Positions 1-14,246 of a stretch of DNA of 17,720 nucleotides are shown here, one piece after another (the stretch's first letter is position 1; each line of letters starts with the position of its first letter). The DNA is from an uncultured Eubacteriales bacterium (lineage in GTDB: Bacteria > Bacillota > Clostridia > Lachnospirales > Anaerotignaceae). The notes under the pieces are model-generated. The model was not told the DNA's origin. It saw only the letters and a program-made list of their open reading frames with translations, and made no database searches. The DNA is taken from NCBI GenBank assembly GCA_902406135.1, contig CABPCX010000007.1, positions 1-17,720 of the forward strand. Direction: 5' to 3'. The position numbers were made by a program, and so were the translations under genes.

Positions 1-1731
1 ATTCTTTTCGTCTTCTTTGTCGTCTCTTTCTACTCTGCCTTCTTCAAGCTCATAGCTGTGTGTGGGTCTCTTGCTGTCAAGATAGTCTTCGTATTCTTCT
101 TCGTCCATTACAACATATTCGCCGTCGATCTTTACAAGGTGGCTTTCTTCATCCATGTAATCGCTTACATCATTAGTGAATGTTCCGCTAGTGATAGTGA
201 GGTTATCTTTGCTGTCAGCTTCTACTTCACCCTCAAATGTGCCGCCTTTGATATTTAATAATGAATTTTCCTTAGCTTCAATCTTACCTTCAAATGTGCC
301 GCCTTTGATAGTAGCCTTTGTTGTTAACTGTTCGCCTTCACCATCAATACTCTTTTCAATTTTAACAGATGTTTCTTCTGTAATGTTTCCGCTTTCCATA
401 ACGAAATCAGCGTCATCTACATTGTATTTGTTGTCTACTCCAATTCCGCCCCAGCCGTTTCCAGATGTAGTAATATCTTTTACTGTAACGTCTGATGAGG
501 TATTCTGTATAGCATATGCGCCACAGTCTTTAATTTCAACATTTTTAAGAGTTAATTTTGCAGTATCGTCGTTAGAACCTGTAAATACATTAAATCCATG
601 TCTAACTTTTTTATTGTTGCCATCAAGTTTTAAGTCTTCTACTGTTACGTCAGCACCATTCATTACATCAATGAAAGAACCATTACCTCTGTCTTCGGAT
701 ATTTTGGCTCCAACGTATTTAAGTGTGCTGTCGTTACCAACAATTTCTACATCTTTTAAGATTCTTATCTTATTTTCAAGTTCGTATGTATCATTTTCAA
801 GAACCCATGTAACTCCGTCAGCCTGATATTTTTCTGCAAGCTTAAGGTCATCTTCATCACTGATGTAGAATTCTTTATCGCTCTTTTCAAAGGCCTTATC
901 ATCCATAACAACATAGTTGCCCTCTTCATCCTTTAAGAGCTTACTATTGGCATCCATATAATCACTTACATCTGATGTAAAGCTGCCTTTTACGATCTCA
1001 ATATTTGCAGTATTTCCACTTGTAGTATCATCTATCTCAATATCAAAAGTACCATTATTAATAGTTAACTTTGCATTTTCAAGCCATTCACTTTCAGGCT
1101 TTGTATTATCACTTGTATATTCTACTCTACCTTTAACTGTACCAGTCATATTATCTAAGAATGTAACAGTTACTCCATCCACATAGCCATTATCAGGCCA
1201 AAAATACAAATCAAAAGCAACCTTACCATCCTTAGCTGTTATATTTGTATCTCCACCAATTTTTGTATTTCCACAGTTATTGCTGATTACATAACCACAA
1301 TTTTCACCTGTTCCATCAAGATTCATATCCATAAGCGTAAGATTACAGTAATTCTGGATAAGAATTTTTGCTGTATCCGATTCAACCGATCCATCTTTTA
1401 ATGTAATCTCAGAACCTTTTAATAACTGCATACCATTTGTTTCTGTACCTGTAGAACCAACTGTGCCATCTATTGTATATGTATAGCCATTGAAATCTAT
1501 AGTGAAGTTATCTCCTGATTTTGCTATAAAACCACTCTCTTTAATATTATCAAGTATTTCTATAGTACATTCTTTTCCACGCGCAACCTCAATAGCCTCA
1601 CCTAAAGTTTTATATCCTTTGCCATTAATTTCAGCAACATCTCCATCTCCAGCCAACGCCGTAAAGCTGCATACGCTCATGGCCATAACTACACCCATAA
1701 GTCCGGCTGTAAGCTTCTTAAATCTTTTCAT
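1..1731 (-). CDS. Secreted beta-helix surface protein, partial (3' end beyond window), probable SLH protein
   Basis: The reading frame runs from an ATG at 1731 to the left edge without a stop (577 codons). Residues 1-29 form a signal peptide: a basic MKRFKKL start, a hydrophobic core, and a probable cut after ALA. A 'ING.GY.TLGEAIEVA' segment follows at about 37-52. Residues about 300-500 have the short-rung pattern of a right-handed parallel beta-helix (pectate-lyase-like). Two copies of a 'G-S/T-F-T-x-D-V-S-D-Y-M-D' module lie at about 249-260 and 516-527, each followed by a YVVMD segment. The last 20 residues (HSYELEEGRVERDD...) match the acidic linker that precedes the SLH motifs in the paralogue at 11506-14007. 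I therefore infer that SLH motifs lie just outside the window. The ribosome binding site AAAGGAGGA lies 8 bases before the start. No catalytic residues are recognised, and the ligand or function is unknown. Confidence 0.85.
   Translation of the reverse strand, partial: MKRFKKLTAGLMGVVMAMSVCSFTALAGDGDVAEINGKGYKTLGEAIEVARGKECTIEILDNIKESGFIAKSGDNFTIDFNGYTYTIDGTVGSTGTETNGMQLLKGSEITLKDGSVESDTAKILIQNYCNLTLMDMNLDGTGENCGYVISNNCGNTKIGGDTNITAKDGKVAFDLYFWPDNGYVDGVTVTFLDNMTGTVKGRVEYTSDNTKPESEWLENAKLTINNGTFDIEIDDTTSGNTANIEIVKGSFTSDVSDYMDANSKLLKDEEGNYVVMDDKAFEKSDKEFYISDEDDLKLAEKYQADGVTWVLENDTYELENKIRILKDVEIVGNDSTLKYVGAKISEDRGNGSFIDVMNGADVTVEDLKLDGNNKKVRHGFNVFTGSNDDTAKLTLKNVEIKDCGAYAIQNTSSDVTVKDITTSGNGWGGIGVDNKYNVDDADFVMESGNITEETSVKIEKSIDGEGEQLTTKATIKGGTFEGKIEAKENSLLNIKGGTFEGEVEADSKDNLTITSGTFTNDVSDYMDEESHLVKIDGEYVVMDEEEYEDYLDSKRPTHSYELEEGRVERDDKEDEKN
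181..303 (-). repeat. Beta-helix rung repeat of about 60 bp
   Basis: Inside the partial surface-protein gene the coded peptide 'KGGTFEG' recurs with a 20-residue period (I-K-G-G-T-F-E-G, then 12 residues, then again), and a third, weaker 'TSGTF' follows. At the DNA level the 20-mer caaatgtgccgcctttgata occurs at 234-253 and again at 292-311. This is a short internal duplication of beta-helix rungs, a plausible site of length variation. Confidence 0.7.
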
Positions 1732-1784
1732 TTCTGCATCCTCCTTTAAATTTTTAGCCATTAAAAACTAATGATACAATTACC

Positions 1785-1812
1785 ATTTTACCCCCCCCCA
1801 CGGAAAAATCAA
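1785..1812 (-). promoter_or_regulatory. Promoter with G9 homopolymer spacer
   Basis: Read on the minus strand, TTGATT (1807-1812) is followed by a 16-bp spacer that ends in nine consecutive G (1791-1799), then TAAAAT (1785-1790). The predicted transcript start is near 1778, giving a leader of about 47 nt before the ATG at 1731. The G run abuts the -10 box, so any gain or loss of a G changes the -35/-10 distance. The paralogue upstream of 14007 has the same layout with G10 and a 17-bp spacer. Box assignment is by eye; the arrangement is directly visible. Confidence 0.72.
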
Positions 1813-1954: not shown

Positions 1955-1982
1955 AAAAAAAGCGGAGACCAAAGGTCTCCGC
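1955..1982 (-). terminator. Rho-independent terminator of etfBA
   Basis: A perfect 9-bp stem (GCGGAGACC at 1962-1970 with GGTCTCCGC at 1974-1982, 3-nt loop) is followed on the minus strand by seven T (1961-1955). It starts 15 bases after the etfA stop codon. Between here and the promoter at 1812 (1813-1954) I see no gene or recognisable site. Confidence 0.93.
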
Positions 1983-1996
1983 CTAAATTTTCAAAA

Positions 1997-3865: not shown

Positions 3866-4123
3866 ATAAAACTTAGATTTTATTGTTAAAATTTAACTTT
3901 TGGCACCAGTACCCGTAAAGACAGCGTCTTTATGCCAAAAGCCGTCCTCACGACACCGGATCGCACTGACGGTCCGGCCTCCCCATATTTATAAAATTAA
4001 TAAAAAACTGAGGGAGTACGCAGGAGCATACCCCCGCAGCCAAAATTTGAATGAAATCCAATAACGTTCTAATCGAAATTTTTACTTAAGCCCAAATCCC
4101 TTTAAAAGTTCGTCTGCGCTTAA
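3866..4123. other. Gene-free, hairpin-rich intergenic stretch between acyl-CoA dehydrogenase and etfB
   Basis: No credible gene is present. The stretch holds a palindrome GTTAAA-a-TTTAAC (3885-3897). It also holds a long hairpin: TTTTGGCA 3898-3905 pairs with TGCCAAAA 3933-3940, enclosing TAAAGAC/GTCTTTA at 3916-3922/3926-3932. A G+C-richer block with interleaved arms follows: CCGTC 3942-3946, CCGGA 3956-3960, GACGG 3968-3972, TCCGG 3973-3977. The block is upstream of the etfB promoter, so it would be in a transcript only by read-through from the dehydrogenase genes. Its identity is unknown. Confidence 0.5.
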
Positions 4124-11505: not shown

Positions 11506-14007
11506 TTACATAGCTAAGAGTGATGCTACCCATCCTCTTGTTGCGTTGGGCGCTCCGCCAACATAGATTTCAGGTGTCTTTCCGTTTGCTATAGCGCTCA
11601 TTCTTTCAAACTGCTCTGTTGTAAGAGCGTCATCAGGACCAAATACGTCGCCGTATCCTGCTACGATTCCCTGCTCGTATGCCCAAGCTACTGCTTTTGC
11701 ATACCAATCGTCTGATGTTACATCAAGGAAAGGTGCAACATTCTGGGGTTCAGGTTTTCCTGCTTTGTTCCAAAGTACTGTTGCTCCCATACCTCTTGTG
11801 AGTGTTCCGTTGGGTGCGAATCCTCCGTCGCCAATACCTGCCATCCAGCCGTTTTCATATACTTTGATGATTGCATCATAGTTAGGGTTGTCTTTACCTA
11901 CGTCTGAGAAAGGTCCTGCCTCCTCTTCGGGTGTTACTACAGGCTCATTCTTTTCGTCTTCTTCGTCATCTCTTTCTACTCTGCCTTCTTCAAGTGAGTA
12001 GCTGTGGCTGGGTTTTGAACTGTCCTTTATAAGTTTAGGTGTAGCTGTAAATGTGTCACCATTTATATGGTTAAGAAGTTTTTCCGTAAATGTGTCATAA
12101 ACTTCTCCGTCAATAATCCATCCCTTAAATGTATAGCCTTTTTCCTTATAATCAGGAAGGTTTTCACCTATATTAGCTACATTATATTCTTTTTTCTTTA
12201 TTATGTCTCCGTCACTGTCTTTAAATTCAATTGAACCGCTTCTGCTATCGTTAAATATTGTTATTAAACTAAATCCATTGGGGTTTGTAAATGTAACTTT
12301 ATCGTTATCGTTATTATTATTAAGAGTAGCTTTATAGTAATATGTTCTTCCGTTATGGATATGCTTTACGAAAAGATTGTCTTCATTGAACATATCGCTA
12401 GGTACAGGTATTGTTACCTCAACTTCTTTTGTTACATCAAGTTTTTCTCCTTCTTTAATTGTTTTAGTAGATGTTCCTGATGTAGCTTCGAGCTTATACA
12501 TAGGTGTAACATCTACAGTGAAAGTTTTTTCTGTTTCAGTATTTACATAATTTTCTACTTTAACATCAAGATATGTAACTACCTTAATCTCGATGTCTGC
12601 TTCATTATCTACTTCAAGAGCTTTCTTAGCGTCATCTACATCGCTCTTTGTAACCACATCTTTGACATTGTTTTCTAATCCAGCTACTGTAGTATCATTC
12701 GCTATTGTGTTTTCAAAATTACTAGGAAGTGTTACTCCTTCAGTCACTTCTACAACAGTATCATCTGTTTCTGTTGTAACTACAGTCTCACCAACTGTAT
12801 CTGCAACAACTTTTACATTTAAATAGCTTTCTTCATCAGCGAGTTTAGCACCATCCATAAGATAAATTGTCTGGCCTTCAACCGGGCTATAATATTCACC
12901 ATCTATATTCACATTTGTTTCTTCATCCAGCTTTGCTCCTGTAACAGTTACATCTCCGCTTACTGTTATTTTAGCAGGGTATGCAGGATATTTAGGGTTT
13001 AATGTCTCTATTGCGTTTTTCTCACATCCGCAATCAATGTTACACTTATTGATTGTTCCTTCATTGATAACTTCATATGAACCACCATTTGATACGGATA
13101 CACCATCGGGGTTCAATAAAACTCTATCGATTTCACCATAATTTTTAAGAACAACATCGCCCTTAATATATCCTCTCATAGCCATATATAAATTAGTCTT
13201 AACGACCGCATCTTTATTTACAATCATTTCGGCGCTTCCAGTATATCCATTTGCTCCTGTAACAGCACTGTAAGGTCCGTTTATCTCACCATTTACAGTA
13301 CATGAAACTCTTCCAATTCCGCCATAAGAATAGCTTGCACCAAAATAATAGAAAACTTCTCCATTTATAACTACATTTGCTTCTTTTACAAAGTTTTTTG
13401 CAGTTCCAGTTCCTTCTCCTACATCAACAACGTCCTCAATCTGAGGGCCAACAGCTGAGTTTCCACCTGCATAAAGAAGTCTTACTTCTCCGTCAACAAC
13501 TATATCTACATTTCCAACCTGAGCTTTGCTTGTACCATCTCCATGAGATGTTAAACCGCCGCCATATACATTTAAAGCAGCAGCACCTTCATCAATCTCA
13601 ATTCTAACATTATCAGTCTTTGAGTCAGCATATCCTCCGCCAAAAATCGTATTTACCTTGGCTCCGTCTTTAATCCTTATAGTTACATCACTGTGTTCTC
13701 CATTGTTATCAATGTCATCATTTCCACCGGCAAATATTGTTAATCCCTCTGCTGACGCAACATTTTTGTCAAATGTATAATCAGTCTCTCCAACTGTTAC
13801 TATCAGGCCATTCCCTTTATTATCGGGAGCAACAATAATATCATTACCGTTTGCAAAAAATACATTGTTATATACTTTTCCAGCATCAGGTGTATTAATA
13901 TTATTTACTGTTGGAAGCTTATTATCCGCCAGCGCAGTAAAACTGCATACGCTTAAGGCCATAACCGCACCCAAAAGTCCGGCCGTAAGTTTTTTGAACT
14001 TTTTCAT
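11506..14007 (-). CDS. Secreted S-layer-homology (SLH) domain surface protein
   Basis: 833 residues. A signal peptide covers 1-27 (MKKFKKLTAGLLGAVMALSV, probable cut after ALA). Residues about 70-330 are Gly-rich with repeated 'V.I.GEV....GG' rungs, suggesting a beta-solenoid. Residues about 591-660 resemble an InlB-type B-repeat ('GYTFKGWIIDGEVYD'). An acidic linker (about 661-696) leads to SLH motif 1 (about 699-745) and motif 2 (about 758-808). Only the tail of a third SLH motif is left (about 815-833, 'NATRGWVASLLAM'). SLH domains anchor proteins to secondary cell-wall polymers, so this is an exported surface protein; its ligand is unknown. Signal peptide, linker and promoter closely match the gene at 1-1731. 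AAAGGAGGA lies 7 bases before the ATG. Transcription starts from a promoter with a G10 spacer. Confidence 0.92.
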   Translation of the reverse strand: MKKFKKLTAGLLGAVMALSVCSFTALADNKLPTVNNINTPDAGKVYNNVFFANGNDIIVAPDNKGNGLIVTVGETDYTFDKNVASAEGLTIFAGGNDDIDNNGEHSDVTIRIKDGAKVNTIFGGGYADSKTDNVRIEIDEGAAALNVYGGGLTSHGDGTSKAQVGNVDIVVDGEVRLLYAGGNSAVGPQIEDVVDVGEGTGTAKNFVKEANVVINGEVFYYFGASYSYGGIGRVSCTVNGEINGPYSAVTGANGYTGSAEMIVNKDAVVKTNLYMAMRGYIKGDVVLKNYGEIDRVLLNPDGVSVSNGGSYEVINEGTINKCNIDCGCEKNAIETLNPKYPAYPAKITVSGDVTVTGAKLDEETNVNIDGEYYSPVEGQTIYLMDGAKLADEESYLNVKVVADTVGETVVTTETDDTVVEVTEGVTLPSNFENTIANDTTVAGLENNVKDVVTKSDVDDAKKALEVDNEADIEIKVVTYLDVKVENYVNTETEKTFTVDVTPMYKLEATSGTSTKTIKEGEKLDVTKEVEVTIPVPSDMFNEDNLFVKHIHNGRTYYYKATLNNNNDNDKVTFTNPNGFSLITIFNDSRSGSIEFKDSDGDIIKKKEYNVANIGENLPDYKEKGYTFKGWIIDGEVYDTFTEKLLNHINGDTFTATPKLIKDSSKPSHSYSLEEGRVERDDEEDEKNEPVVTPEEEAGPFSDVGKDNPNYDAIIKVYENGWMAGIGDGGFAPNGTLTRGMGATVLWNKAGKPEPQNVAPFLDVTSDDWYAKAVAWAYEQGIVAGYGDVFGPDDALTTEQFERMSAIANGKTPEIYVGGAPNATRGWVASLLAM
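11947..12006 (-). repeat. Linker segment shared with the paralogous gene (copy of 1-60)
   Basis: These 60 bases match positions 1-60 in the same orientation at 54 of 60 positions by eye. The match encodes the acidic pre-SLH linker. The copies lie about 11.9 kb apart as direct repeats, and the match may extend beyond the left edge of the window into the SLH region. Confidence 0.85.
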
Positions 14008-14061
14008 ATAACATCCTCCTTTAATTTTCTTTAGCTTTTTTGAGCTAATAACTCATATTCT

Positions 14062-14090
14062 ATTTTACCCCCCCCCCAGAAAAATTTCAA
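14062..14090 (-). promoter_or_regulatory. Promoter with G10 homopolymer spacer
   Basis: On the minus strand TTGAAA (14085-14090) is followed by a 17-bp spacer made of TTTTTCT plus ten G (14068-14077), then TAAAAT (14062-14067). The transcript should start near 14055, about 48 nt before the ATG at 14007. The leader contains a 6-bp hairpin (TTAGCT 14031-14036, AGCTAA 14043-14048). The spacer is at the optimum of 17 bp with ten G; the paralogue has nine G and 16 bp. Confidence 0.76.
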
Positions 14091-14211: not shown

Positions 14212-14238
14212 ACAAAAAAGAGCGGCACAAGCCGCTCT
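14212..14238 (-). terminator. Terminator of the rplS-lepB-rbgA unit
   Basis: A perfect 8-bp stem AGAGCGGC (14219-14226) / GCCGCTCT (14231-14238) with a 4-nt loop is followed by a T run on the minus strand. It is 8 bases after the rbgA stop. Confidence 0.92.
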
Positions 14239-14246
14239 CAAATAAA

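Follow-up and report, generated by a model that had tools for sequence, protein, structure and literature searches.

Poly-G tracts in the promoter spacers of surface-protein genes in gut Clostridia as candidate slipped-strand switches

In the 17,720-nucleotide stretch of DNA that was analysed here as a whole (the window), an SLH gene (gene B) and its paralogue (gene A) both lie behind promoters in which an uninterrupted G tract stands between the -35 and -10 boxes. A slipped-strand promoter switch resembling that of porA in Neisseria meningitidis is in our view the best explanation of both tracts, with a probability of roughly two in three, where slippage in the population and an effect of tract length on transcription are presumed by analogy. 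The same promoter layout recurs before surface-protein genes in three of four genomes of the closest genus, and the lengths of the T/G run differ among near-identical copies.

Reading the minus strand across the promoter core of gene B (14090-14062) gives TTGAAA TTTTTCT GGGGGGGGGG TAAAAT with a tract of exactly 10 G, which confirms the claim of the first-pass annotation that TTGAAA, seven bases, ten G and TAAAAT form a promoter with a 17-bp spacer at this SLH gene; the distance from promoter to ATG is 54 bp. That annotation had also stated that the G-tract promoter recurs before the paralogue, and this is borne out by the G9 tract, the spacer of 16 and the TAAAAT box found 53 bp before the ATG of gene A (Table 1). 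The ATG at 1731, which follows AAAGGAGGATG, is the likely start of gene A, and the open reading frame called mechanically from 1761 includes the ribosome site. Genes A and B have a signal peptide in common and largely similar leaders, and no SLH domain was found in the 577 aa of gene A that lie inside the window.

Table 1. Positions of the two promoters, their genes and neighbouring elements in the window.
Feature	Positions	Strand	Remarks
Promoter core, SLH gene B	14062..14090	-	TTGAAA 14090-14085, TTTTTCT 14084-14078, G10 14077-14068, TAAAAT 14067-14062; spacer 17
G10 tract, gene B	14068..14077	-	proposed variable spacer
Ribosome-binding site AGGAGG, gene B	14015..14020	-	read from sequence
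Gene B	11506..14007	-	833-aa exported protein; signal peptide by eye, two SLH domain matches
Terminator-like hairpin	14218..14239	-	3' of rbgA-type gene, upstream of gene B promoter
Promoter core, SLH-family gene A	1785..1812	-	TTGATT 1812-1807, TTTCCGT 1806-1800, G9 1799-1791, TAAAAT 1790-1785; spacer 16
G9 tract, gene A	1791..1799	-	
Ribosome-binding site AGGAGG, gene A	1740..1745	-	read from sequence
Gene A	1..1731	-	incomplete (window end); paralogue with the signal peptide of gene B
Terminator-like hairpin	1960..1984	-	3' of etfA, upstream of gene A promoter

The identification of both G-tract sites as sigma-A-type promoters can be regarded as secure. Each is the sole sigma-70-like match in its scanned stretch, yet shuffled sequence does equally well (1 versus a mean of 1.0), and the match gains its weight because each promoter has the start codon on one side and, on the other, a terminator-like hairpin belonging to the upstream gene. 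Placement of the tract in the 5' leader was set aside, as it lies upstream of the -10 box in a region with a hairpin and one promoter match, while a promoter farther upstream could still exist. G8 words occur in the window as five overlapping matches confined to the G10 and G9 tracts, while 200 dinucleotide-preserving shuffles average 0.17 and reach 3 at most; on these shuffles, together with shuffles of the flanks of the genus tracts described below, a chance origin of the layout was set aside.

The closest relatives were identified through the rbgA-type protein of the window. Its counterpart in Candidatus Metalachnospira gallinarum (L001) shares 93% identity with it, and identities of 90% and 86% were obtained with the proteins of a Clostridia MAG (L002) and Anaerotignum sp. 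MSJ-24 (L003), respectively. The closest-genus set comprises the genomes containing these three loci (G001, G002 and G003, respectively) and a fourth, G005. Gene B is not present next to rbgA in L001-L004. In G001, a gene related to gene A (44% identical over 270 aa) occupies the equivalent site after etfA, and its promoter has a spacer of 15 (G7T) as against 16 (G9) in the window.

A census of every G tract of at least seven bases in these four genomes, taken regardless of context, returned 23 tracts (seven in G001, four in G002, seven in G003 and five in G005) where about 279 are expected from base composition as measured on pieces of the genomes. The promoter layout, namely a -10-like box adjoining the tract and a TTG box 13-19 bp upstream, was seen at 12 of the 23, four each in G001, G003 and G005 and none of the four in G002. 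By eye, 11 of these 12 precede signal-peptide genes, and the twelfth (L111; L190, contig C9 of G001) has TTGACA, G9, TAAAGT and a spacer of 19 before the gene for a TraX-family membrane protein. The remaining tracts are one coding G8 in G005 and ten for which inspection by eye gave a tRNA start, hairpins, coding stretches or no clear assignment. Under a stricter rule (at least five of six matches at -10, a TTG -35 box with at least four of six, spacer 13-19), nine of the 23 pass. When the flanks were shuffled 2000 times with their composition kept, 0.045 tracts passed on average and never more than 2; the true significance of this comparison is lower, because members of the same family are not independent. 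The G7 TAAAAT promoter on contig C123 of G005 (L104; L186; spacer 18) stands 641 bp before the gene for a 962-aa exported protein, which gives a long leader. On contig C28 of G001 (L191), an SLH-family gene behind a G8 promoter stops early, and the SLH matches fall in a separate downstream open frame.

Tract and spacer lengths were tallied for 15 sites, two from the window and 13 from three genomes, including a fifth G003 copy with G6 that came from a pattern search. Spacers measure 13 (three sites), 14 (one), 15 (four), 16 (three), 17 (two), 18 (one) and 19 (one), and the tracts are G6 (one), G7 (five), G8 (six), G9 (two) and G10 (one), with those of the relatives being G7-G8 at 11 of the 13 genome sites. 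The closest comparison comes from the five promoter copies of MSJ-24 (G003), where spacers are 13, 13, 13, 14 and 15 and the fill between -35 and -10 reads T5CC-G8, T4CC-G8, T4CC-G7 (twice) and T4CGA-G6. Downstream of the -10 box these copies match a 205-bp stretch with 97-100% identity over 204-205 bp and no gap reported, and gaps within the block common to all five are confined to the T/G run; one copy (L118) shows a 1-bp difference some 100 bp upstream, in a part where one of the other copies is already divergent. Four of the five genes, examined over their whole length, specify exported proteins that vary in the middle and agree at 99-100% over the final ~130 residues (Cu_amine_oxidN1). 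In G001, three paralogues with the signal peptide of the window family have spacers of 15 (G7 plus T), 15 and 16.

A G run is also found inside a coding region. On contig C157 of G005 (L189), a coding G8 (4114-4121, minus strand) lies where a signal peptide ends. In the assembled sequence a stop interrupts the signal-peptide frame shortly after the tract, and the SLH frame is adjacent and open for 895 codons. This out-of-frame SLH gene suggests that in this genus G runs also serve at the level of translation.

If both tracts are switches, sigma-A-type promoters would here have spacers of variable length, set by the G10 and G9 runs: gain or loss of G by slipped-strand replication would widen or narrow the distance between the -35 and -10 boxes, and transcription would thereby be tuned or silenced. 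By the porA analogy, gene B (G10, spacer 17) would be in the strong state and gene A (G9, spacer 16) one step away from it, and the SLH or other exported proteins displayed could differ among cells of one population. Slippage is plausible at G9-G10 and slower at G6-G8, the lengths seen in most relatives. The MSJ-24 spacers of 13-15 all fall below the 17-bp optimum; either the five promoters would be weak or off, or this species would tolerate shorter spacers and the porA rule would not apply to it. A MutS domain was found in five of five genomes, so a mutator background is not evident, and loss of MutS was rejected on this ground.

The alternative that deserves most discussion is a fixed promoter element, such as a regulator site or a helix shape that favours one sigma factor, which would co-regulate surface genes while small length changes amount to drift and no switching occurs. 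A scan of 392 genomes of the order with the pattern TTGAN{6,13}G7TAAAAT found 19 sites in eight genomes and none with the reversed control; eight sites belong to the genus and seven to a genome from elsewhere in the order (G323). The latter (L161, L165, L167, L169, L170, L171 and L172) stand before zinc-ribbon, lipoprotein and other genes and have the look of a fixed element: all seven read TTGACA-N9-G7-TAAAAT, with exactly G7 and a spacer of 16 under a broader pattern permitting others, and at least four of the seven clearly differ between the -35 box and the G run. In view of this constancy, a G run next to a -10 box is no proof of switching, and, in keeping with a fixed element, the genus yielded no TTGA...TAAANT site whose tract was G4 or G5. 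Against it, lengths are far from constant in the genus and the window, where spacers of 13-19 and tracts of G6-G10 over the 15 sites include near-identical copies, and spacers of 14-19 occur at the G9-G11 tracts of other Clostridia. On balance we consider a fixed element unlikely for the window, though it keeps an appreciable share of our belief.

It could also be supposed that these are ordinary constitutive promoters whose functionless G runs were inherited through duplication of one ancestral promoter. Copies inside one genome are clearly duplicates, and the 12 layout sites are consequently not independent; yet G tracts so far under their compositional expectation have been kept at promoters, and at least four unrelated promoter backgrounds carry them in the genus (the G003 family, the family of G001 and the window, and the G005 sites L108, L112, L104 and L120), which makes inheritance from a single ancestor quite improbable. 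That the runs are sequencing or assembly artefacts is scarcely credible. Some short-read chemistry does miscall G runs, and the window itself matches none of the compared genomes, but different species, assembled separately, show the layout, among them MSJ-24 (L003), which is recorded as a strain rather than a MAG, and its placement relative to -35, -10 and gene is always the same.

Beyond the genus, long tracts count in favour of the slipped-strand reading. A spacer pattern with at least nine G gave 10 sites in six of 391 Clostridia genomes (reversed control 0), and seven of the 10 precede exported proteins compared with 154 of 811 in the background (binomial 0.0006), where export was called with a crude signal-peptide test and the background was the 811 open reading frames of rbgA neighbourhoods. 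Taking together the 32 sites outside the genus from the order, phylum and long-tract scans, exported proteins follow 10 of 15 tracts with at least nine G and four of 17 with G7-G8, the latter being near background. One genome, G188 (L223, L228 and L229), has G9, G10 and G11 TAGAAT promoters with spacers of 18 or 19 before exported proteins with similar signal peptides, one of which the crude export test missed owing to an upstream start. Other searches gave less. Outside the genus, the pattern G6NTAAAAT was not enriched in 58 genomes of the family (five sites in four genomes versus 13 reversed-control sites), and of these five sites the two inspected by sequence were not called promoters. Within the genus, two of 11 pattern-scan sites are by eye not promoters of this kind, L087 having no -35 box and L089 a G run that is the ribosome site of a LysR-like gene. 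A phylum sample of 398 genomes showed a weak excess (13 sites versus six in the reversed control), with some spacers of 11-12 or sites inside open frames. A protein search of a plasmid collection gave three weak matches; viral contigs gave none by protein search or with the window's own promoter string, and 11 stretches matched the general pattern.

Slipped-strand promoter switches are known mainly from Gram-negative mucosal bacteria, and the porA promoter was reportedly treated by van der Ende in 1995. The likeness to porA claimed in the first-pass annotation holds for the layout, since in both cases poly-G stands between the -35 and -10 boxes of a surface-protein gene. The porA optimum is 17 nt, which is the spacing of gene B, and reduced spacing leads to loss of transcription (PMC7864442); repeats that alter spacing are described in another source (PMC5084427). 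As in porA, the homopolymer lies wholly between the two boxes and its length differs between copies or species, and the products are probably surface-exposed, as judged from the SLH domains of gene B and the common signal peptide of gene A. Unlike porA, the promoters belong to Gram-positive Clostridia, precede SLH and other exported proteins, occur as several paralogous copies per genome and carry a T run adjoining the G run. Homopolymer length likewise acts at the surface-protein promoters of opc (poly-C, N. meningitidis) and tpr (poly-G, Treponema pallidum), but the opc tract includes the -35 box and the tprL tract is part of the -10 box, so that spacing is unchanged there (PMC7864442). Invertons, the invertible promoters of gut bacteria, offer a reversible promoter change before surface genes as proposed here, but by DNA inversion and not by slippage (PMC8748976, PMC11892184). 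A literature search that covered mainly titles and abstract openings, with few subscription journals, found no report of poly-G spacer promoters in Clostridia.

The proposed mechanism is already known from porA, and the interest of these promoters lies in the host group and in the multigene families. It is conceivable, although we hold this tentatively, that poly-G spacer promoters serve several lineages of gut Clostridia as stochastic switches for whole sets of exported proteins, and that in Candidatus Metalachnospira and its sister species these act on multigene families whose members are constant at the ends and variable in the middle and, together with a coding switch, yield combinatorial surface variation in Gram-positive commensals. 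With its family of five paralogues in a named strain, MSJ-24 makes the switch directly testable. If gut Clostridia do switch SLH-type and lipoprotein genes in this way, metagenome reads that already exist could reveal the surface variation of commensals through their tract lengths, and this variation would bear on how commensals meet IgA, phages and changes of niche.
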